DNA of 64,000 nt. Source: Pseudoalteromonas sp. N1230-9 (GTDB lineage: Bacteria; Pseudomonadota; Gammaproteobacteria; Enterobacterales; Alteromonadaceae). Made by a program: the position numbers and the translations under genes. Positions 766 through 10,427 of the stretch are shown in pieces. The DNA is taken from NCBI RefSeq assembly GCF_032716425.1, contig NZ_CP090419.1:2668001-2732000 (forward strand), written 5' to 3'. Below the pieces are notes generated by a model. That model was not told the DNA's origin. It saw only the letters and a program-made list of their open reading frames with translations, and did no database searches. Positions within the stretch are counted from its first letter, which is position 1. The number at the start of each line of letters is the position of its first letter.

Positions 766-1293
766 ATGAAAAATTCCTTCAATACTCACTTTTTTAAAAT
801 ACTGCTAGTTGGTTTGATGATCACGTTTTTATCAGCCTGTACAGAGGTGAAAAAAAGAGAGCCTGCAATTTATCTAATACCAGATGGATACGTAGGCTCT
901 TTATATATTGTATTCAACGCACCAAATGGTAAACCTCCCAAATACGAGGGTAATTCAAGGGTGTATCATATTCCCTCATCAGGTGTGCTTGTAACACAAA
1001 TGGATGCCAATGAAGGTTGGAGTGAAAGCAGTGAAATTAAGTACTTCTCTGTGAGTCAATCAGGTAAACGAGCTCCCATAAGTACAGTTTCAGAGGGTAC
1101 CCCTGATAATACAAGAGCTTTATATTCTGGTGGCTTAGGTGAAGCAGGCCCCATTTTTGGTTGTACGGTGATCAATAAGAAGTTTACGATCGGCACGAAA
1201 TCACAGAGAACTGACTTAAATAAATTACTCACGATTTTTGAAGCCATCAAAGTTAAAAACATTGATAAAAAACTATTCGAAGATATGTGTTAG
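766..1293 (+). CDS. Lipoprotein, DUF6843-like
   Basis: A 175-residue protein with a lipoprotein signal: basic N-terminus, hydrophobic core and lipobox LSAC, giving a lipidated cysteine at about residue 25. The mature part begins with YLIPDGYVGSLYIVFNAP and then RVYHIPSSGVLVT, a pattern I associate with the DUF6843 family (function unknown; assignment from memory). The residue after the cysteine is Thr, so the default sorting would be to the outer membrane. AAGG lies 7 bases before the ATG. It follows the truncated upstream gene by 10 bp. A large partner with a small membrane lipoprotein behind it is a common effector-immunity arrangement, but nothing here proves that role. The dense ORF on the opposite strand is a shadow. 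Confidence 0.75.
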   Translation: MKNSFNTHFFKILLVGLMITFLSACTEVKKREPAIYLIPDGYVGSLYIVFNAPNGKPPKYEGNSRVYHIPSSGVLVTQMDANEGWSESSEIKYFSVSQSGKRAPISTVSEGTPDNTRALYSGGLGEAGPIFGCTVINKKFTIGTKSQRTDLNKLLTIFEAIKVKNIDKKLFEDMC

Positions 1294-1519: not shown

Positions 1520-2161
1520 TTATTTGATACTGGCGGTTTGAATTGATTCATTTTGCAGCACAAAATAAGGGATGACTTTTTGTGCGCTTGCAGTGACTTG
1601 TTTTGAATTTAAGTTTATCACTCTGGCATTCACTTCTACGCCGGTGTTACGGTAGATCAAGGTGCCCGACAGTACATGACTGGCAATTTGGCGCTCTGCT
1701 AGCTCTTCCACTTTACGTGTCATGACAAAATCGCCACGAGGAGTCACTTTAATCACATCCATCGCTTTAAAATCAACCACACCAAAGCCGAACTTTTGTA
1801 ACTGATACATCATCGATTCTGCAATCTGGTTACCAAGCTGAGAGCTTGTATCAAGGCTGGCATCTAATTCAACAAATGTGGTAATTGCGATACCAAGCTC
1901 AGCCTCTTGTTGCATTGTATCAACTAACTCTAACGCCATTTGCTCAACATAGTTAACTAGTGTTTTATGATGTTGATACGGCACGAATAGCCTATCGTTC
2001 GTATTGACTTGCTGCGCTTGGTTTTGTTGCTCTTGCAATAAAGCAGCATAATCTATTTGTGTTGTTGAAGTGTTCGCTTTTGGCTCTGGCTGTGGCTGCT
2101 GTGCAAGCATTTCACAACCTGTTAGGACTAAGCATAAAGCGATTGAAAAAAAACATTTCAT
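1520..2161 (-). CDS. FlgO-family lipoprotein (copy 1, last gene of the surface locus)
   Basis: A 213-residue lipoprotein: lipobox LTGC (Cys about residue 16), a Gln/Pro-rich linker, then a FlgO-type domain at about residues 70-200. Diagnostic stretches are SSQLGNQIAESMMYQLQKFG, VVDFK, VTPRGDFVMTR, and VLSGTL followed by VNARVIN. FlgO in Vibrio is an outer-membrane lipoprotein needed for flagellar stability and motility. No flagellar genes lie in this window, and this copy is third in a tandem of three related genes transcribed with a pilus locus. The start codon is 3 bp after the stop of the upstream FlgO-like gene, so translational coupling is likely. I infer a role in an outer-membrane collar or assembly scaffold; the family match is firm, the function is not. 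Confidence 0.85.
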   Translation of the reverse strand: MKCFFSIALCLVLTGCEMLAQQPQPEPKANTSTTQIDYAALLQEQQNQAQQVNTNDRLFVPYQHHKTLVNYVEQMALELVDTMQQEAELGIAITTFVELDASLDTSSQLGNQIAESMMYQLQKFGFGVVDFKAMDVIKVTPRGDFVMTRKVEELAERQIASHVLSGTLIYRNTGVEVNARVINLNSKQVTASAQKVIPYFVLQNESIQTASIK

Positions 2162-2164
2162 AAT

Positions 2165-2845
2165 TTACTCACTTGCCTGCTTTAGCATAATGCCGTCACT
2201 ACGGTTAGTACTGTCGAGTGCATCAACAACCGACTGTGGAATAAACCCTTGAGCAGAGCCAACTACCGCTTTACTGGTAATGCCAACAATACGCGCATTC
2301 ACAAGCACACCACCTTGGTGATTGACTAAAGTGCCTGCCAATACATAATTAAAGTTTTGCTGCTGACTTAATTCTAAGTAGTCTCGACTAAACACGAAGT
2401 CACCAGTGGGGGTAACACGCATATAATCTGTTGTTTTAAAGTCGATAACTGGCACGCCAAAGGTATGTAATTCGTGCATAAAGCTTTCGGCAATTTGATT
2501 ACCAAGTAATGAACCTGCATTGTAATCAGCGTCTAGGTATATAAAGCTAGACACCGCAAGTGGTGTTTTATCGTTAACGTATTGCAGGTTTTCAACCATA
2601 TCCTGCATGATGCCTCGAACATAGTGATTAATGTTCTTCCGTGTTGGCGCTGCAGTAAACGTACTGTCGTTCATTACCACTTGGTTGCTTTGAAATACGC
2701 TTGTGCTTGTTTGCGGGGCAGCAACTTCACGCTGTGCGCTAACAAGCTGAGGCTCATCACTGTATGTCTTTTCGTTATCCGCTGTCAGCATCGAAGAACA
2801 ACCAAAGCCTAAAGGAAGGCATAAACTTAAAAATAAACGTTTCAT
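2165..2845 (-). CDS. FlgO-family lipoprotein (copy 2)
   Basis: A 226-residue lipoprotein with lipobox GFGC. Its FlgO domain aligns along its whole length with copy 1: AGSLLGNQIAESFMHELHTF, VIDFK, VTPTGDFVFSRD, YVLAGTLVN and VNARIVG. Both copies have NQIAES, DFK, a VTP-x-GDF motif and a VNAR motif, so the genes arose by tandem duplication followed by strong divergence outside these motifs. A good ribosome binding site (GAGG) precedes the ATG. It is separated by 12 bp from copy 3 upstream and by 3 bp from copy 1 downstream. Likely an outer-membrane component acting with the other two; role in the pilus locus is inferred from context. Confidence 0.85.
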   Translation of the reverse strand: MKRLFLSLCLPLGFGCSSMLTADNEKTYSDEPQLVSAQREVAAPQTSTSVFQSNQVVMNDSTFTAAPTRKNINHYVRGIMQDMVENLQYVNDKTPLAVSSFIYLDADYNAGSLLGNQIAESFMHELHTFGVPVIDFKTTDYMRVTPTGDFVFSRDYLELSQQQNFNYVLAGTLVNHQGGVLVNARIVGITSKAVVGSAQGFIPQSVVDALDSTNRSDGIMLKQASE

Positions 2846-2857
2846 TGATAATTCCTC

Positions 2858-3451
2858 TTAATATTCACTACGGTATAGCTGACCATCACGCTGCTGCACT
2901 TTCTCATTTCCCCACATAACATTAATAGGAATTTCAGTACTAGCAGCCGACACTATTCGCTGATCTTTTGTATTAACTAGGCGCGCATTAACTATGTAGG
3001 CATGTTGTTGCCGTGTTAATGTGCCTGTGATGACAAAGTCAATATTCTGACGTTGACGTAACTTACTCACATCACGACTTAATATACTATCGGCCGTAGG
3101 CTGTAAATTTAAAGTGTTTTCTAAACGGTATTCAATGGTATGAAAACCCAGTTGTGTGAACTGGGTCATTAAACTCTCTTGAATTTGTTGGCTCAAGCCA
3201 TTGCCTTGATTGCTTGCCAAGCGAGTACCTAAGCCATCAGCCATATAAAAACTGGTTACAGCAATGCGAGCATTGCCTTTGTAAGAGCCTTGAATGCGGC
3301 TTAATTGACTGCTTAAATCTGCAACATATTGATTAACAGTGTAGGCTGCCATGCGAGCTTTAGGCGCATTGGTCGATACAACTGGTTTTGCCTCTTCTGT
3401 GAGACTACAACCAGTCAGTATAAAAAATATAAAACAATGTAAAAGTCGCAT
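2858..3451 (-). CDS. FlgO-family lipoprotein (copy 3)
   Basis: A 197-residue lipoprotein with lipobox LTGC. I start it at the ATG at 3451, which has GAGG nine bases upstream; a GTG three codons earlier would have that site directly on top of it. FlgO-type signatures are IAVTSFYMADGLG, QQIQESLMTQFTQLGFHTIE, ILSRDVSKLRQRQNIDFVIT, TLTRQ and VNARLVN. It is the most divergent of the three: NQIAES has become QQIQES and the DFK motif is missing. It follows the SPOR lipoprotein gene by 57 bp. As with the neighbours, outer-membrane location is well supported and the job is inferred. Confidence 0.85.
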   Translation of the reverse strand: MRLLHCFIFFILTGCSLTEEAKPVVSTNAPKARMAAYTVNQYVADLSSQLSRIQGSYKGNARIAVTSFYMADGLGTRLASNQGNGLSQQIQESLMTQFTQLGFHTIEYRLENTLNLQPTADSILSRDVSKLRQRQNIDFVITGTLTRQQHAYIVNARLVNTKDQRIVSAASTEIPINVMWGNEKVQQRDGQLYRSEY

Positions 3452-3508
3452 AATTGCCACCCTCTATGAACATAGCAATGTACTAGCAAGGATTATGCCT
3501 AATAATAT

Positions 3509-4108
3509 TTACATGCCTGAAAAGGGTTTATTGGTGTATTGAGTGACAAGGCAATTGACTTCTTTTTGCTTTAATAACTGGCAATCCTTTTCAGCCATTT
3601 GCTTCTCTTTATAAGCGCCTATTTTTAATCGATGATACACAACACTGTTAACCTCAACAGCCTCAACGTTAACCGCAAATTGACCTGTAAACATACTTGG
3701 GGCTTTACTTTTTAACTCTTCTAAACTTCGCGTTAATCGCGCTGTTTCTGTGACAGAGGCAACTTGTAATGCAAATAATGGCTGCTCAGTATAAGCATTG
3801 CTTTTAACATCAACAGGTTCAACAACTTGCTCACTAACGGGTGAGCTTTTAGCTTGGTTTTCTGTTTGCGTCTTGGCAAGATCATTTAGCTGGGTAATTA
3901 GTAGGTTTAGATCATTTTCAATTGCGATAAGGCGATCAATGCTAGGTTTAGCTTGTTGCCACTGCGCGGCACTTTCTTTTAGGCTATCGAGTTCTTGTTG
4001 AGTAATTTGCACACTATTTTGCGGTGTGGAAGAGTGTTCGCTATTTGTTGATTGACACGCAGATGCCAGTAAACAAAGTAAAACAACACTAAAATGACGC
4101 TTTAACAT
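3509..4108 (-). CDS. SPOR-domain lipoprotein
   Basis: A 199-residue lipoprotein (lipobox ASAC). The start is placed at the ATG at 4108 because AGGGA lies about ten bases upstream and a signal peptide follows at once; an in-frame ATG at 4156 inside the usher gene has no such support. Residues about 30-80 form an amphipathic helix with QWQQAKPSIDRLIAIENDL. Residues about 120-199 form a SPOR-like domain: LFALQVASVTE, YHRLKIGAYKE, AEKDCQLLKQKEVNC. SPOR domains bind peptidoglycan glycan strands lacking stem peptides. The same helix occurs in the lipoprotein at 9176-9763 and the same SPOR type at 9870-10427 and in the usher, so it is an integral part of the system. It follows the usher stop by 16 bp. 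Confidence 0.85.
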   Translation of the reverse strand: MLKRHFSVVLLCLLASACQSTNSEHSSTPQNSVQITQQELDSLKESAAQWQQAKPSIDRLIAIENDLNLLITQLNDLAKTQTENQAKSSPVSEQVVEPVDVKSNAYTEQPLFALQVASVTETARLTRSLEELKSKAPSMFTGQFAVNVEAVEVNSVVYHRLKIGAYKEKQMAEKDCQLLKQKEVNCLVTQYTNKPFSGM

Positions 4109-4124
4109 TATAATTTTCCCTAAA

Positions 4125-7118
4125 TTAATAACTAACCGTATATGGCTCAACATCACAGTTAAGCTTATAGCTCTTTAATACGCTGCAAACTTGTGTAAGT
4201 TCATCGCTTTGAGTTTCAGAAAACGCGGCTGAGAGAACAAACTCTTTATCACTTTTTTTGATATAAAAAGGATCTAAAATAGCGAGATCTGATAATGGTT
4301 TTTTCACAAGATAAAGATATGTTTTTAAGATAGCGAGTGATGAAAACTGCCCTAACTTAGCAATGTAGCCATCTTTTACTTGTTTAGGCTTTAATACTAG
4401 ATCAGCGCCAACAACAACTTCGCCACCAGCAGATAAGTTAAGGGTCACATGTTGGTTATCTTTTAATGATTTTTTGTCTTTATATTCATCATCTATCACT
4501 GCTTTATATTCGCCTGGGCGAAGGTCTGTAAACAAGTAATAGCCATCATACGCAGCTTGGGTTTGCGACACCTTTTTCCCTGTTTTATCAATGAGTGAGA
4601 TGTTCGCAAACGGTTGCACTTTCATATTTTCATCTTGCTCAACATACACAACCCCCTCAACTTCGCTGCTGTTGTTAAGCGCTATATCAATATATTCTAT
4701 AAATCCGGCTCTGGGAGTAACAGAGAAACCATCATTAGCAGCGATCAAAAATGGATCTGGAAAACTATCTGGATCAATAACAATATCGGTCGTTCTATTC
4801 GCAGGCATACTGGTTAGCAATGCAATGCCGTTTTCATCAGTGACTGCTTGACGATAATTTTGCACACCTTTGACTTTAACACCTGCAATACCATGCTCAC
4901 TTTCATCCTTGATTCCATTATTATTGGCATCTAAGTAAACGTGAGCCATCAGAGTACCTGAGCGTGCTAAACTTCGTTTGCTAGAAAAGATACCAGTGCC
5001 TTGGCTAGCATAACCTAGGCTAAAGCGGCTAAATAACCCTACTCGCCAACGATCTTCACTGTCGTAGTTAAGATTACTATTTAGGCTAAATCTATCAGAT
5101 TGCCAATTAAGTCCAATCTCCGCTGACTTTACATCATCAATAAGCGAGTTACGAAGTGTCAACTCACCTTGCAACTGTGATGTTAAACTACGATTAAATT
5201 GGGCCTCATATGACTGAATAGAGTGGTGAGGACTCATACTGTAATCCAGACTAAAACGGCTAAAAACTTGACCAAATCGACCTTGGAGTCGAACGTTACC
5301 CAATAAGGTAGAGTCATCGAGCCTGCTGTCTTTTTGCCAACTCAAGCGGTGATTAAAGGAAAAGCCTGAGTAAGCATAGTTCATGATATTCTCGAGCTTT
5401 AGGCTGTCGTATCGGCTATCAATGTCAGTGTAATAAGCGTTGTTTTGATAGTTGAGTCGACCGTATTGATTTTGAAAGACCTCTCCAGAGATATTAAATT
5501 CATAATTGCTTGATGAACTCATGCTTTGCTGGCTGCTTTGACGATTAATTAAACGCTCTCGTTCTGATGCACGAAACCTTAACGCTTGCTCGGCAATTTG
5601 ACCTCTTGCGGTAAACTCAAGCTCGCTTTCATCTTCATTGTTTTGCTCGTAATCTAGGTTAATTAACAGACGGTCAAAAAGGCTCACATTACTACCGATC
5701 GCTAGGTTTTGAGTGTCATCTTTATACTCACTTTTTAAACCCGCTATACCGCCATACACTGAGATATTATCTGTTAATGCTGTATCGTAACGGCCAGAAA
5801 ACAGCCAGCCTGGGTTTTCAACATAATAATTCGATTGGTTAAATAACTGGTGCCCTTGCTCCGTGATTGAGAATTCATAAAACGACTCTCCCGCAGACAA
5901 GCTAGTGCCATCAATCAAGTATTGTTCAGTCTTTCGCTCCACTTGACCTTGCGGTCCATAAAAAATGAGCTCAAAGTTATTGGCGCCATACAGCAAGTCT
6001 ACATTTTCAAATATATACCTACCGTCATTAAGACTAAGTAGCTGATTAATTAAAACACCATTTTGATACAGCTCTACATCCCAGCCGGGTTGGATATTAC
6101 CAATGATGTTAACCTGATTAGTATTAACAGGCTTAAATAGCGGTTTATTAGTTACTTTTGCACCGCGAGCATAATTGCTATTAAAACGGTTCCCTATTTG
6201 CGTTGCAAGTACATCACCAAACTCTATTCTGTTTGCTGCTAAAGGGCCAAGTAGCTCTGAATTTAAGTCTTCACGGCTAAATGTGAGTCTTGAATCAGTA
6301 AGTAAGTCACCATCACGACCCGCAAAATAGTATTCAGCATTTAAGTATGCAAGATCATTAGCACCAAGAATAGAGTATCCCGCAGAGCTTTGTTGATCAT
6401 CTGCTGTCATGCTAATTTGGATATCTGCCATAGGAGAAGACACAGCTTGGTATGGGCTTTCTTTCCACGGTAGTGTTGGCTCAGAGTAACGTGCTGTTTG
6501 GCTTAGCTCTCTTTTCTGCCGAGCTAAGCGTGCTTCTATGGGTAATCGTGCGTCAGAGTTTATGTAAAGTTCAAGTGTTGAGTAGTCTACAGCCATTGTT
6601 AAATCAAACACTTGCTCAAGTAATGTTGAAGCAACAAAAATATCTTGCTGATCAACGTGTAACTGTTCTTGGGCTATTGAAAATGTCCGACCTTTAACTG
6701 TTATGGTCATTTTAGTTGTATCAAGCACAAAGGTATTTTCTGGATTAATAAACCAGCCCTTCGCAATACCGGTATTTCCATTTACATCAATTACAAACTC
6801 TACGGTTTCAGAGAAGCTCAGCAAGTCGACCCATATTCCTTGCTGACTTTTAACAGCTAACACTTCTCCTAAGTAGGTATGCTTTAAGTAAGCTGAAAAA
6901 AACAACAACTCCCCAACAGGGATCCCTTCCCCATTCATTTTTTTATTGAGGTCTGGTGCTGTTGCCTGAGAATCAGCGCTTTCTCTTTCAGAAGCTTTTA
7001 ACTGTTGTAACTGCTGCTGCATTTTCTTTAATGAAGCAAATACAGCCTGATAATTTTTTTCAGCTGCGACAGGAGCGCCAGTGGCAAACATTAAAAGACA
7101 AAATAAGAGACGTTTCAT
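4125..7118 (-). CDS. Outer-membrane usher with C-terminal SPOR-like domain
   Basis: A 997-residue protein with a signal peptide (about 1-19). In order: a Gln-rich helix (about 25-50); an N-terminal periplasmic region; a divergent usher beta-barrel (about 230-715) with a plug-like segment reading GNIQPGWDVELYQNGVLIN and YGANNFELIFYGPQG; an SdrB-like module with the Ca-binding pattern DANNNGIKDESE (about 730-741); a carboxypeptidase-regulatory-like fold ending DLRPGEYKAVID; and a last module from about 917. That module begins YIAKLGQFSS and carries C978 and C988 in the same C-x9-C pattern as the three SPOR lipoproteins of the locus. Known ushers secrete chaperone-bound subunits and end in small periplasmic domains; a SPOR-like tail is unusual and would link the barrel to the cell wall. 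The start codon directly abuts the chaperone stop (TAAATG). The barrel resembles TcfC/alpha-type ushers more than PapC, judged by eye. Confidence 0.8.
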   Translation of the reverse strand: MKRLLFCLLMFATGAPVAAEKNYQAVFASLKKMQQQLQQLKASERESADSQATAPDLNKKMNGEGIPVGELLFFSAYLKHTYLGEVLAVKSQQGIWVDLLSFSETVEFVIDVNGNTGIAKGWFINPENTFVLDTTKMTITVKGRTFSIAQEQLHVDQQDIFVASTLLEQVFDLTMAVDYSTLELYINSDARLPIEARLARQKRELSQTARYSEPTLPWKESPYQAVSSPMADIQISMTADDQQSSAGYSILGANDLAYLNAEYYFAGRDGDLLTDSRLTFSREDLNSELLGPLAANRIEFGDVLATQIGNRFNSNYARGAKVTNKPLFKPVNTNQVNIIGNIQPGWDVELYQNGVLINQLLSLNDGRYIFENVDLLYGANNFELIFYGPQGQVERKTEQYLIDGTSLSAGESFYEFSITEQGHQLFNQSNYYVENPGWLFSGRYDTALTDNISVYGGIAGLKSEYKDDTQNLAIGSNVSLFDRLLINLDYEQNNEDESELEFTARGQIAEQALRFRASERERLINRQSSQQSMSSSSNYEFNISGEVFQNQYGRLNYQNNAYYTDIDSRYDSLKLENIMNYAYSGFSFNHRLSWQKDSRLDDSTLLGNVRLQGRFGQVFSRFSLDYSMSPHHSIQSYEAQFNRSLTSQLQGELTLRNSLIDDVKSAEIGLNWQSDRFSLNSNLNYDSEDRWRVGLFSRFSLGYASQGTGIFSSKRSLARSGTLMAHVYLDANNNGIKDESEHGIAGVKVKGVQNYRQAVTDENGIALLTSMPANRTTDIVIDPDSFPDPFLIAANDGFSVTPRAGFIEYIDIALNNSSEVEGVVYVEQDENMKVQPFANISLIDKTGKKVSQTQAAYDGYYLFTDLRPGEYKAVIDDEYKDKKSLKDNQHVTLNLSAGGEVVVGADLVLKPKQVKDGYIAKLGQFSSLAILKTYLYLVKKPLSDLAILDPFYIKKSDKEFVLSAAFSETQSDELTQVCSVLKSYKLNCDVEPYTVSY

Positions 7119-7946
7119 TTACTGCAAAGAATTAAAATGCTGAGACGTGAAGGTCGTCGTTTTAGTTGAAAAAACTTGCCCTTGATACTCTTTTAACCCC
7201 GAGTAAGTAATGCGTATTTGGCTATTTTCTTGTAGCTTCATATTATCAAATAAAGGCAGAGTTAAAGTAACGTTATCAAGCTCAGGATAAATACTGAAGT
7301 CATTTACCATGGCAATTTTTTGCTCTTCTTTACTTCCTGATAGAGTTTGAAAAACTTCAACTTTTCCGAATGAACTATAATCGCCAGAATGATTAAGACT
7401 AATGCCAAGTGATGGTTTAGCATCATTTGTTAAGTACTTTACTGAAGCAATATCAATCTCAGGTAGCGTAGTTCCCTGTCTTAAGAGCACAGGAATTGAG
7501 TAACTTAAAACCATGTCTAAACGAATACCAAAGCTTTTACTATTACTTTTATGTTCATTGGGTAGCGCTTTAAAGACCAAGTGAGAACGATATTCTTTAT
7601 CTGCCAGACCTTTAGCTCTGCGAAGAGCTATTTTCACAACCTGCCTCTCTCCCGGCGCTAATCTCACCTGAGAAGGACTCAAACGCATCATACTGGCCAG
7701 TGAATTAGGGTTAACCTGATCGTCGGTCAGCGTTATATAACCACCTTGCGGCTTCGCTATTTTCTCTTGCCACTCAAGGCGGTAAGTTTTGCTCTCATTA
7801 GAGTTATTTACCACAATAACTTTAGCGACTCGTTGCCTGTCATCAAATGCAATACGTGTTGGCGAGATCAATAAGTTTGCATATACAGCAGCACTATGAA
7901 AGGTTAGTAAAACAATAAAGCAGTATAGAAAGTATCTGTACTTCAT
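7119..7946 (-). CDS. Periplasmic pilus chaperone (PapD-like)
   Basis: A 275-residue protein with a signal peptide of about 23 residues. The mature start LLISPTRIAFDDRQRVAKV is the typical first strand of PapD-type chaperones, with the conserved Arg of the subunit-anchoring pair. The G1-region stretch PGERQVVKIALRRAKGL and the following EYRSHLVF also fit. Such chaperones complete the immunoglobulin fold of pilins by donating a strand and deliver them to the usher encoded immediately downstream with no gap. The long C-terminal second domain is present, so the protein is intact. It lies between a pilin gene (9 bp upstream) and the usher. The partner pilins are of the DUF4402 type, so this belongs to a non-classical chaperone-usher family. 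Confidence 0.88.
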   Translation of the reverse strand: MKYRYFLYCFIVLLTFHSAAVYANLLISPTRIAFDDRQRVAKVIVVNNSNESKTYRLEWQEKIAKPQGGYITLTDDQVNPNSLASMMRLSPSQVRLAPGERQVVKIALRRAKGLADKEYRSHLVFKALPNEHKSNSKSFGIRLDMVLSYSIPVLLRQGTTLPEIDIASVKYLTNDAKPSLGISLNHSGDYSSFGKVEVFQTLSGSKEEQKIAMVNDFSIYPELDNVTLTLPLFDNMKLQENSQIRITYSGLKEYQGQVFSTKTTTFTSQHFNSLQ

Positions 7947-7955
7947 AAAATTCCA

Positions 7956-8414
7956 TTAAAAGTCTACGGTTAATGAGACGGTTGCATCATAATAACCATC
8001 ATTATAGGTGCTACCATCACCACTTGTGCTTATCTGCCCACCCACCGTTAATACAGCACTGCCGTATGAGTCAGTGACCAAGGTAGGGTTATAAATCAAT
8101 CGATTGAGATAAAAGCGTTGGTTATTGTGTAAATTACTAAGTGGTTGGTTATTCACATTATCACTAATGGTAACTTGTATTCTTGCTCCATAGCCTTCAA
8201 ACAATAACTCGGCGGCGCGACCCTGTTTAACAACATAAATACTGTTGCTACTCGCGCTAGTATTGCTTGGCAAAACAGTGACAGAGCTAACACTTGAGTT
8301 GTCTGTAATAGCCAGTAGACCAAAGCTAAGTGGTTCAAGCTCAGTTATTGTTTGTTGTGCAACAGAGCCTGCGCTCAATAAAAGAGCACTTAATAGACAA
8401 AAATGCGTACGCAT
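7956..8414 (-). CDS. Minor pilin or tip subunit, DUF4402-like
   Basis: A 152-residue secreted protein with a signal peptide ending near SVAQQ. The N-terminal LEPLSFGLLAI matches the L-x-FG strand of DUF4402-type subunits, and the C-terminus YNDGYYDATVSLTVDF matches the dG-x-Y-x-g-x-x-x-V-x-V end of the same family. No cysteines, no membrane segment after the signal. It follows the larger pilin by 36 bp and precedes the chaperone by 9 bp. It is shorter than the 196-residue neighbour and closer in composition to a tip or terminating subunit, but which subunit caps the fibre cannot be told from sequence. Confidence 0.75.
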   Translation of the reverse strand: MRTHFCLLSALLLSAGSVAQQTITELEPLSFGLLAITDNSSVSSVTVLPSNTSASSNSIYVVKQGRAAELLFEGYGARIQVTISDNVNNQPLSNLHNNQRFYLNRLIYNPTLVTDSYGSAVLTVGGQISTSGDGSTYNDGYYDATVSLTVDF

Positions 8415-8450
8415 AAGTTATGCCTGCTAACACTTAGCAGGCACTCTATG

Positions 8451-9041
8451 TTAGTAATCTAATTGCAGTGTGAATGTACCGCTATAAGTACCATCAATAT
8501 AATCGAGAGCCGGAGTTGTGGCATCTGTTGTTAGTGTTCCACCCACATTGAATGTTGCCTCACCATTAGCATCTACTTGGATTGTTGTTGTGGCTGCAGA
8601 GTTAGGGTTTGCACCAGTTAATACATAATAAGTAGGCGAAGCTAACACAAAGCCTGCGGTGCCAGCTGGCGCTGAGTCAGGTGCGATGGCCGTCTCAGTT
8701 GGGTTTGTGATGTTTAAGGTTGCAAAAGGTGATACACCTGAAACACTGAATGACGCTGGTGTACCAGGTACTAGGATAGCAATTTCAGCTAAAGCTGCAT
8801 TTGTGCTGGCTGTCGTCGCAGATGTTGCAGGGTTAGCTGATAACACTAGCGTTGCTGTTTCTGTCGACGCTGTATCTGCTTTGGCGCGAATTGTACCAAA
8901 ATCTAGGTCGCTGTCTTTTTGCAATGTAAACGCGTTTTGTACCGTTACACCAGCTTGAAAAGTAGTTTGCTCAGCAACAACGTTAAACGTTAAAAGTGCT
9001 GATGAGGTCATTAGTGCTGCTATCTTTATTGAGTTTTTCAT
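8451..9041 (-). CDS. Major pilin, DUF4402 family
   Basis: A 196-residue secreted protein. AGGA lies 6 bases before the ATG at 9041, so I prefer it over an ATG two codons upstream. Signal peptide to about VVA-EQTTF, then LQKDSDLDFGTIRAKAD, the DUF4402 L-x-FG motif, and the family C-terminus YIDGTYSGTFTLQLDY. The sequence is very rich in Ala and Thr and free of cysteine, typical of a fibre subunit made in quantity. First gene of the pilin-chaperone-usher run; the 134 bp upstream are AT-rich and hold no ORF, with a possible promoter (TTGCCG, 17 bases, AATAAA on the minus strand), so it may be transcribed separately from the lipoprotein genes upstream. The 99-residue ORF on the plus strand here is a shadow. 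Confidence 0.85.
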   Translation of the reverse strand: MKNSIKIAALMTSSALLTFNVVAEQTTFQAGVTVQNAFTLQKDSDLDFGTIRAKADTASTETATLVLSANPATSATTASTNAALAEIAILVPGTPASFSVSGVSPFATLNITNPTETAIAPDSAPAGTAGFVLASPTYYVLTGANPNSAATTTIQVDANGEATFNVGGTLTTDATTPALDYIDGTYSGTFTLQLDY

Positions 9042-9175
9042 ATGCATTCCTAAGATATGATAAAAAGTTTCAACCTTTTATTCAGGTTAAATTAAGTATC
9101 GGCAAAATGCATTATTTTATTAGGAAAAAATGTACTTTTTTTATTGTTTTAAATAAAAAAGAGTAAAACGATAAA

Positions 9176-9763
9176 TTACAAATCAACGCCTTTAAATTCA
9201 GTAGTCTCACAATGGCTATAAATAAGTTCAAAAACTTGGCAGAGTTTGTTTGCCTCTTGCTCTGTTTGTAGCGGCCCAGCGACAAGGCTATAAAGTGTTT
9301 TAGAAGCTGATGATTGCGTACTCATTTTATAACTAAGCATATTATAAAGATTAGGATAACGATTTTTAAGTTGGCCTAATTGGGCTCTCACTCCCCGCTC
9401 AACTAAGTAACTGCCAATTTTCACACCATGAGTAGGTGATTCTGTGTTTGTGGTTTCATTCAAATTTTGATTTACCGTTGTAGACACTTGCTCAGTGCTA
9501 CCATAGCTAACAACTTTAGGATCGCTTTGCAGCTTTTTAGGCAGTTTATCAACGTCAACTTGTACAGCAAGTGCTTGTATTAGCATCAACAAATCAGCTT
9601 CAATGGTATTTAAATGATCTATTTGTTCTTTTTTAGTATCCCACTCAACTAAAAGTTGTTGAAGCTCCTCACGATTAATATCTGACTCTTCGTAAGAGTT
9701 TGGATCTGAGAAACTACACGCCTGTAGTAAAATAAAAAGTGTAAAGACAATAAACCGACTCAT
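9176..9763 (-). CDS. SPOR-like lipoprotein with N-terminal helix
   Basis: A 195-residue lipoprotein with lipobox LQAC. Residues about 30-70 include VEWDTKKEQIDHLNTIEADL, clearly related to QWQQAKPSIDRLIAIENDL in the lipoprotein at 3509-4108. A low-complexity linker follows, then a SPOR-like domain: HGVKIGSYLVERG, LYSLVAGPLQTEQEANKLC and CQVFELIYSHC, again C-x9-C. SPOR domains bind denuded glycan strands of peptidoglycan. The gene lies upstream of the pilin, on the other side of the usher from its paralogue, so the two lipoproteins bracket the secretion genes. An extended -10 promoter at 9813-9821 probably serves it. Confidence 0.82.
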   Translation of the reverse strand: MSRFIVFTLFILLQACSFSDPNSYEESDINREELQQLLVEWDTKKEQIDHLNTIEADLLMLIQALAVQVDVDKLPKKLQSDPKVVSYGSTEQVSTTVNQNLNETTNTESPTHGVKIGSYLVERGVRAQLGQLKNRYPNLYNMLSYKMSTQSSASKTLYSLVAGPLQTEQEANKLCQVFELIYSHCETTEFKGVDL

Positions 9764-9800
9764 TAAAAGCTCACCCTAAAAAACGACTCTACTTCCAAGC

Positions 9801-9824
9801 AAAAAAAGTGCCATTATAGCACTT
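9801..9824 (-). terminator. Terminator hairpin overlapping an extended -10 promoter
   Basis: On the minus strand AAGTGC-TATAATG-GCACTT runs into a stretch of T, a rho-independent terminator for the upstream lipoprotein gene (9870-10427). The loop region contains TGCTATAAT, a perfect extended -10 element, about 45 bases before the start of the next lipoprotein gene. No good -35 is visible, as usual for extended -10 promoters. Confidence 0.55.
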
Positions 9825-9869
9825 GTACCTGTCGAATTTCAGATAGAAAAACCATTCTTTGAATAAAAG

Positions 9870-10427
9870 CTAAAAGTTCACTCGGTTATCTGTATAGCTA
9901 CTTACCCAGCAATCAATCCCTTGGCGCTTAATAGCTTCACAGTCAGCTTTCGCGTTCTTCAAATATTTATAACCGCCAAATTTCAAACGGTAGTAGGTGT
10001 GCTGATCTATATCTGCAACTTCCATATTCAAAATTGGGGAGCCCTGAAAAATATGGGGGGCAAGTCTTTGCATTTTTCTAAGTGCAATCGCTAAGCTTTT
10101 TTCGCTATTAACTGACGCGAGTTGAAGGGCAAATAAGTAGTTATGCTGGGCGCTGATTGATCCTGAGCTCTGAACACCACTCGTCTTGACTGCTGATAAA
10201 TGTGTTGGGGGATCAATCGTAGCTGAACCGCTGGTGTGCATATTTGCTTTTAGAAAAAAAGGCGAATCAAATTGCTCACCAACAAAAGTAACCACCTTGA
10301 TAGAGGCACTCAATGCGGCTAATTTATTATTTTGAAGAGATACTAAAGAATCACTGCTGCAACCAGACACAAATAGTAATGCCAACAAACACATACTATG
10401 TTGCAAAGGCTTGATGCAATGTTTCAT
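9870..10427 (-). CDS. SPOR-domain lipoprotein, first gene of the surface locus
   Basis: About 185 residues with lipobox VSGC. Starts at 10457, 10433 and 10427 are all possible; I chose 10427 because a normal signal peptide begins there, but no clear ribosome binding site decides it. After a linker the C-terminal about 85 residues align end to end with the SPOR domain of the protein at 3509-4108: LFALQLASVNSEKSLAIALR, YYRLKFGGYKYLKNAKADCE and CEAIKRQGIDC, with the C-x9-C pair. This protein lacks the helix shared by the other two lipoproteins. It is followed by a terminator at 9801-9824, so it may be a separate transcript. Confidence 0.8.
   Translation of the reverse strand: MKHCIKPLQHSMCLLALLFVSGCSSDSLVSLQNNKLAALSASIKVVTFVGEQFDSPFFLKANMHTSGSATIDPPTHLSAVKTSGVQSSGSISAQHNYLFALQLASVNSEKSLAIALRKMQRLAPHIFQGSPILNMEVADIDQHTYYRLKFGGYKYLKNAKADCEAIKRQGIDCWVSSYTDNRVNF

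Follow-up and report, generated by a model that had tools for sequence, protein, structure and literature searches.

A chaperone-usher pilus operon with probable cell-wall targeting in front of FlgO genes in Pseudoalteromonas

To our knowledge, chaperone-usher pili are thought to need just a chaperone, an usher and pilins, and to have no fixed tie to the cell wall. Why, then, does a gene cluster of this type in Pseudoalteromonas sp. N1230-9 sit among three lipoproteins with SPOR domains and run on into three FlgO lipoproteins? The cluster lies in the window, the whole stretch of 64,000 nucleotides that was analysed (contig NZ_CP090419.1, positions 2,668,001 to 2,732,000), in a genome of 4.63 Mb on two contigs. 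We propose, at a rough probability of 0.6, that these genes make up a chaperone-usher pilus operon equipped to target the cell wall, placed in front of flagellar FlgO genes. The SPOR equipment, carried on the usher itself as well as in the gene cluster, suggests a pilus that is tied to particular places of the wall.

The open reading frames and the Pfam matches agree with the original prediction of a pilin-chaperone-usher set with three SPOR and three FlgO lipoproteins on one strand. Ten reading frames occupy window positions 1520-10427, all on the minus strand, in the transcription order SPOR lipoprotein 1, SPOR lipoprotein 2, pilin A, pilin B, chaperone, usher, SPOR lipoprotein 3 and three FlgO genes. 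The intergenic gaps along transcription are 106, 128 (the largest), 36, 9, 0, 16, 48, 12 and 3 bp, with start codons as predicted and unchecked. In window coordinates, the features are:

9870-10427, minus strand: SPOR lipoprotein 1, Pfam SPOR PF05036 (E 5.4e-9), SPOR domain about 9903-10133, lipobox in the sequence
9798-9813, minus strand: sigma-54-like -24/-12 site 5' of SPOR lipoprotein 2, the leading gene of the pilus operon, 11/11 consensus positions
9176-9763, minus strand: SPOR lipoprotein 2, PF05036 (E 2.2e-6), SPOR domain about 9233-9433
8451-9047, minus strand: pilin A, DUF4402 (Pfam, E 2.3e-10)
8421-8443, no strand assigned: stem-loop of 10 bp between pilin A and pilin B, from a sequence scan
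7956-8414, minus strand: pilin B, DUF4402 (Pfam, E 3.6e-6)
7119-7946, minus strand: PapD-type chaperone, Pfam PapD_N (E 1.1e-8)
4125-7118, minus strand: usher of 997 amino acids, FimD/PapC fold, SdrD_B/CarboxypepD-type domains after the barrel
4125-4379, minus strand: SPOR-like C-terminal domain of the usher, residues about 914-997, from fold and profile comparisons
3509-4108, minus strand: SPOR lipoprotein 3, PF05036 (E 1.4e-6), SPOR domain about 3542-3778
3485-3500, minus strand: sigma-54-like site 5' of the FlgO triplet, 9/11 consensus positions
2858-3460, minus strand: FlgO lipoprotein, first of the triplet, Pfam FlgO PF17680 (E 3.5e-36)
2165-2845, minus strand: FlgO lipoprotein, second of the triplet, PF17680 (E 1.4e-43)
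1520-2161, minus strand: FlgO lipoprotein, third of the triplet, PF17680 (E 8.3e-41)

All three lipoproteins match SPOR above the curated Pfam cut-off, as had been expected of their C-terminal parts, and no NCBIfam model scored above its cut-off for the proteins of the locus. A stem-loop downstream of major pilin genes is common.

The SPOR equipment extends to the usher. A comparison of predicted structures gives this protein the FimD/PapC fold; no usher family appears among its Pfam or NCBIfam matches at E ≤ 1, where only SdrD_B lies above the Pfam cut-off and CarboxypepD_reg just under it. Being without a match to a curated usher profile, it is not filed in the classical usher clades, and we place it outside them. 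A sequence search of solved structures returned weak antibody matches only for the usher profile and no match for the chaperone. In the C-terminal tail, two cysteines are invariant in 70/70 aligned sequences, the profile-profile comparison with the lipoprotein SPOR domains reaches 97.1%, and SPOR domains are the top Foldseek hits and fill VIA ranks 2-6, each with a modest score. Pfam SPOR matches 21 of the 70 tails at E ≤ 0.05, with no match for the window's own tail. The modelled fold and the profile comparisons indicate a SPOR fold in the tail, and this goes beyond the original prediction, which named the usher tail only among its checks. In the literature searched (open-licence papers only) we found no description of a SPOR-tailed usher, no paper joining chaperone-usher systems with FlgO and SPOR or with DUF4402, and none for DUF4402 alone; among the papers listed on SPOR domains with ushers, pili or fimbriae, and on usher pili of Pseudoalteromonas, titles and abstract openings pointed to none on this system.

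To assess how far this arrangement is conserved, we used two sets of genomes, with uncurated search profiles, made by iteration in this work, for the usher, its tail and the neighbours. In the order set of 295 genomes, 29 matched the usher and 25 were kept, the loci of all 25 being fetched; four (G147, G156, G231, G289) were dropped because the match was restricted to the SdrD_B-like part. The named set consists of the best 80 of 471 relatives in genomes of named species, 78 of them distinct, with stretches of up to 8 kb on each side. In the close family, each of the 11 full-length loci (the window and L034-L043) combines the SPOR tail with a SPOR gene, a chaperone and pilins, the tail match being weak in L041 (E 1e-3) and L042 (E 3e-4). 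Among the named loci, a SPOR gene is present in 77/78, a chaperone in 77/78 (home-made profile) and a pilin in 76/78, and the single locus without a SPOR gene, L143, is a contig of 8.3 kb. These loci span Pseudoalteromonas (32), Shewanella, Paraglaciecola, Psychromonas, Marinomonas, Bowmanella, Rheinheimera, Vibrio and one alphaproteobacterial metagenome-assembled genome. The window usher is 99-100% identical to those of Pseudoalteromonas arabiensis JCM 17292 and Pseudoalteromonas sp. CO133X, and a tblastn search of plasmids gave seven records, all below 60% identity. Because a SPOR gene stands in 77/78 and a FlgO gene in 50/78 of the named usher loci, the neighbourhood is not due to chance, and the neighbours are indeed conserved together in relatives, as the original prediction required. 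The link between SPOR and the pilus is supported across many genera, and the locus stands for a genuine, widely distributed variant of the chaperone-usher pathway in which both the usher and its gene cluster carry SPOR equipment.

Long ushers of a second, distant group (L047, L051, L052, L076-L079) also end in SPOR. Pfam detected this domain in all seven, which the home-made tail profile missed, at E 2.3e-10 to 7.5e-8 in five and at 0.011 and 0.037, under the cut-off, in two; the home-made profile found no SPOR gene in the stretches of this group. Six ushers have no C-terminal SPOR match (L045, L048, L049, L050, L053, L080). Beside second-group SPOR-tailed ushers and FlgO we also observed lipoprotein-like proteins of 390-420 amino acids with no Pfam match above cut-off (L052 6089-7309, L077 12043-13215, L078 5975-7156, L079 5053-6315). 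Two short usher paralogs, L044 8688-11630 (774 amino acids) and L046 7564-10708 (800 amino acids), keep the SPOR tail and an adjacent SPOR lipoprotein gene. They have no N-terminal domain, no SdrD_B/CarboxypepD-type domains and no nearby chaperone or pilin gene, the genome of L046 also holds locus L037, and the two proteins seem to have been diverted to another use.

The SPOR parts differ in the residues known to contact glycan. A published analysis of the SPOR domain of RlpA together with denuded glycan (PMC6895207) includes Q270, R309 and R311 among the contacts and gives FtsN Q251 and R285 as equivalents of RlpA Q270 and R309; we assigned the corresponding positions by our own alignment to the RlpA residues. 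Lipoproteins 1 and 3 of the window keep the contact Gln, Arg and Lys, and lipoprotein 2 has none of them. The same pattern recurs among relatives: type 1 has Gln, Arg and Lys in 8/8, and the SPOR lipoproteins that follow the usher show Gln in 60/65, Arg in 53/65 and Lys or Arg in 59/65, with nine other downstream SPOR proteins lacking the contact Gln. In the pilin-adjacent type 2, Gln is found in 23/49 and Arg in 13/49. Only 4/70 usher tails have the contact Gln, and the window tail has no contact residue. These residue patterns suggest that the lipoproteins would hold the wall and that the usher tail would dock onto the lipoproteins. In Escherichia coli, a lipoprotein without Asp after the lipobox Cys goes to the outer membrane, and the SPOR lipoproteins point to that membrane because none of the 121 SPOR proteins whose lipobox was recognised has Asp there (a narrow lipobox pattern matched 113/153).

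Loci that lack the pilus show what becomes of the SPOR genes on their own. Upstream of the window locus lie a nucleotidyl transferase (labelled galU here), thyA, lgt and a TauE/TSUP permease. We inspected 20 usher-less Pseudoalteromonas loci and found no usher, chaperone or pilin in them; one or two SPOR genes remain between thyA and FlgO in 12 (L160-L166, L169, L171, L172, L175, L178), and none in 8. Assigned by best match, the leftover genes are types 1 and 2 in five loci, types 1 and 3 in five and a single gene in two. Since the leftover genes form different pairs, more than one loss of the pilus genes is probable. The leftover gene proximal to thyA/galU is full length in 12/12, and the second is shortened in 5 of the 10 loci that have two. 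For the first, the ratio of non-synonymous to synonymous changes (pN/pS) is 0.04-0.06 in three close species (L164, L165, L169), a sign of strong purifying selection, and therefore this protein works without this pilus; the ratio is 0.33-0.48 in the other group and 0.13-0.39 in pilus-bearing relatives.

Such persistence could mean that the SPOR lipoproteins serve the envelope or cell division in general and only happen to stand beside the pilus genes, and that the usher tail is decayed and functionless. The intact first gene, its low pN/pS in one group and the tail's lack of contact residues agree with this reading, but it leaves unexplained why a SPOR gene accompanies all but one of the named ushers, why the two tail cysteines never vary, and why the short paralogs have retained exactly the SPOR tail and its SPOR neighbour; nor does it expect the eight pilus-less loci without a SPOR gene or the five shortened second copies. 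We consider it unlikely. A second alternative, which we find quite improbable, is that the SPOR parts act on the wall, recruiting or holding off hydrolases or clearing a path, rather than anchoring the usher. SPOR domains do occur in wall enzymes, with RlpA and CwlC among the fold matches, but Pfam finds no catalytic domain in the three lipoproteins, and pilus subunits pass the periplasm one by one, so that no hole in the wall is required.

The FlgO triplet raises a separate question, namely whether it serves the pilus or the flagellum. Among the 295 order genomes, FlgO is found in 172 and FlgT in 171, both in 167 and one alone in 9. The five FlgO-only genomes all have weak matches (E 5.8e-8 or worse), and the four with FlgT only comprise one weak and three strong matches; flagellin is present in 34/34 chosen genomes. 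In Pseudoalteromonas, the close usher occurs in 66/108 genomes (counted at E < 1e-130) and FlgO in 107/108. FlgO is kept in 41 of the 42 genomes without a close usher, the exception (G372) also lacking FlgT, which was found in 27/28 Pseudoalteromonas checked. We also noted fragmented close-family ushers in G355 (C2:1068848-1072873) and G332 (C3:65705-68556). In 20/20 of the inspected usher-less loci, taken from these 42 genomes, a FlgO triplet (once four genes) stands beside thyA; these loci were fetched around FlgO matches, and FlgO is thus present by choice, its position not. Other genomes of the family that we viewed include at least five with flgO beside flgT and a flgP-like gene and at least ten with a triplet, which in G254 has thyA and lgt but no pilus genes as neighbours and in G052 stands beside flgT. 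No FlgO lies between FlgT and FlgP in the 28 loci, from Pseudoalteromonas and others, with both genes in view. In the window genome, a profile search found these three FlgO matches only, and flgT (Pfam) and a flgP-like gene (Pfam LPP20), at a distance of about 6.5 kb, enclose no FlgO. The idea of an extra set beside a flagellar flgO was rejected on these grounds. For the middle FlgO, pN/pS is 0.05-0.10 in four pilus-less loci, and the second FlgO of the window is related to the solved structures 9yds and 9yfg (E 4e-35). A 2019 eLife survey (PMC6375700) gives PSHAa0755 of P. haloplanktis as FlgO, a few genes from FlgT and FlgP at PSHAa0761 and 0762.

The triplet also has a putative promoter of its own. 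We counted sigma-54-like sites at 9 or more of 11 positions of what we take to be the -24/-12 consensus. A site precedes the first FlgO in 35/50 pilus-linked and 17/20 pilus-less loci (most score just 9), FlgT in 23/33 and FlgP in 21/28, against a background of 2.2% of random 140-bp stretches and 0/116 flanking housekeeping genes. Because it tracks FlgT, persists without pilus genes, takes the place of the flgO that flgT-flgP lacks and carries a sigma-54-like site of its own, the triplet most likely belongs not to the pilus but to the flagellum, where it would supply the FlgO of the H-ring. A DUF6843 lipoprotein (window 766-1293, plus strand) is convergent with the triplet.

FlgO nevertheless stands near the usher in 50/78 named loci and in several arrangements: downstream on the same strand in the 32 Pseudoalteromonas loci and no others, upstream on the same strand in 8, and on the opposite strand downstream in 8 and upstream in 2. 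In the order set, it neighbours 12/18 full-length ushers with C-terminal SPOR and 0/6 without (Fisher p 0.014, with no correction for relatedness; one of the loci, L053, is a 5.8 kb contig in which the absence of FlgO says little), and FlgT is present in each of the 25 usher-positive genomes, compared with 58% of the order. The adjacency of FlgO and usher is recurrent and only partly explained, the candidate reasons being control shared with the flagellum and an insertion hot spot. A tree of 164 FlgO proteins (every second locus of L084-L158 and every third of L160-L178) requires 34 changes of the pilus-linked label, at least 15 of them on starred branches, against a shuffled mean of 50; pilus-linked FlgO proteins are clustered but form no separate class. 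A reading in which the FlgO lipoproteins build a collar for the pilus in the outer membrane, in one machine with SPOR and usher, draws on this adjacency and is nonetheless very doubtful, and FlgO as a pilus part was rejected, given its co-occurrence with FlgT (167 genomes with, five weak matches without), its persistence beside thyA where the usher is missing, its own sigma-54-like site, the lack of a separate class in the tree and the 28/78 named loci with no FlgO in the retrieved stretch. Of the original prediction of a pilus with its own wall anchor and collar, the SPOR equipment, conserved across genera and present on the usher, is supported, and the FlgO collar is not.

The pilus operon itself may share flagellar control. 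The SPOR gene preceding the pilins has a sigma-54-like site in 26/47 loci (Pseudoalteromonas 19/30, elsewhere 7/17), with 10 or more positions in 21/47; the -24 and -12 elements are kept, and spacer and flanks vary. Control genes have fewer sites (usher 10/79, chaperone 5/77, downstream SPOR 4/58, SPOR 1 0/8), and the first pilin has none in 74 loci (110 bp scanned). In the window, the site at 9798-9813 overlaps a terminator-like hairpin (9806-9824). Judging by these motifs, control in common with the flagellum is plausible, because about half of the SPOR-led pilus operons carry the site and FlgO recurs beside SPOR-tailed ushers.

Under the proposed wall-targeting reading, the PapD-type chaperone would carry the two pilins to the usher, as in other chaperone-usher systems. 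SPOR lipoproteins 1 and 3 most likely bind denuded glycan, judging by their residues, and the usher tail would dock onto the SPOR lipoproteins or hold the wall in another way; docking is the most likely because the tail is without the known glycan-contact residues. The usher would thus be held where amidases have stripped the wall, at the septum and the young pole, a placement that fits the known behaviour of SPOR domains. In many Pseudoalteromonas, with sigma-54-like promoters for the pilus operon and for the FlgO triplet, pilus and flagellum may be made under one programme. A bolder picture, in which septal denuded glycan places the usher, daughters are born with pili at the new pole under the sigma-54 flagellar programme, and some FlgO rings serve both machines, strikes us as a long shot.

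A family of SPOR-tailed ushers makes it testable whether the state of peptidoglycan places an outer-membrane secretion gate, and one genus, with species that have or lack the pilus module at the same site, offers a natural experiment. Compared with known systems, the locus shares with Fim/Pap chaperone-usher pili a PapD-type chaperone, a FimD/PapC-fold usher and pilin genes in one cluster, but differs in its DUF4402 pilins, an usher without a Pfam usher match, the SPOR-like C-terminus and the SPOR lipoprotein genes. With FtsN, DamX, DedD and RlpA it shares the SPOR profile or fold, and lipoproteins 1 and 3 resemble RlpA in the Gln and Arg that our alignment places at Q270 and R309 (PMC6895207). 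Unlike in those proteins, the SPOR domains of the locus are tied to a pilus cluster and share a Cys-x(7-12)-Cys motif, and the usher tail and lipoprotein 2 are without the contact residues. Finally, its PF17680 lipoproteins co-occur with FlgT like the H-ring FlgO of Vibrio-type sodium-driven flagella, whereas here they form three tandem paralogs, away from flgT-flgP and beside pilus genes.

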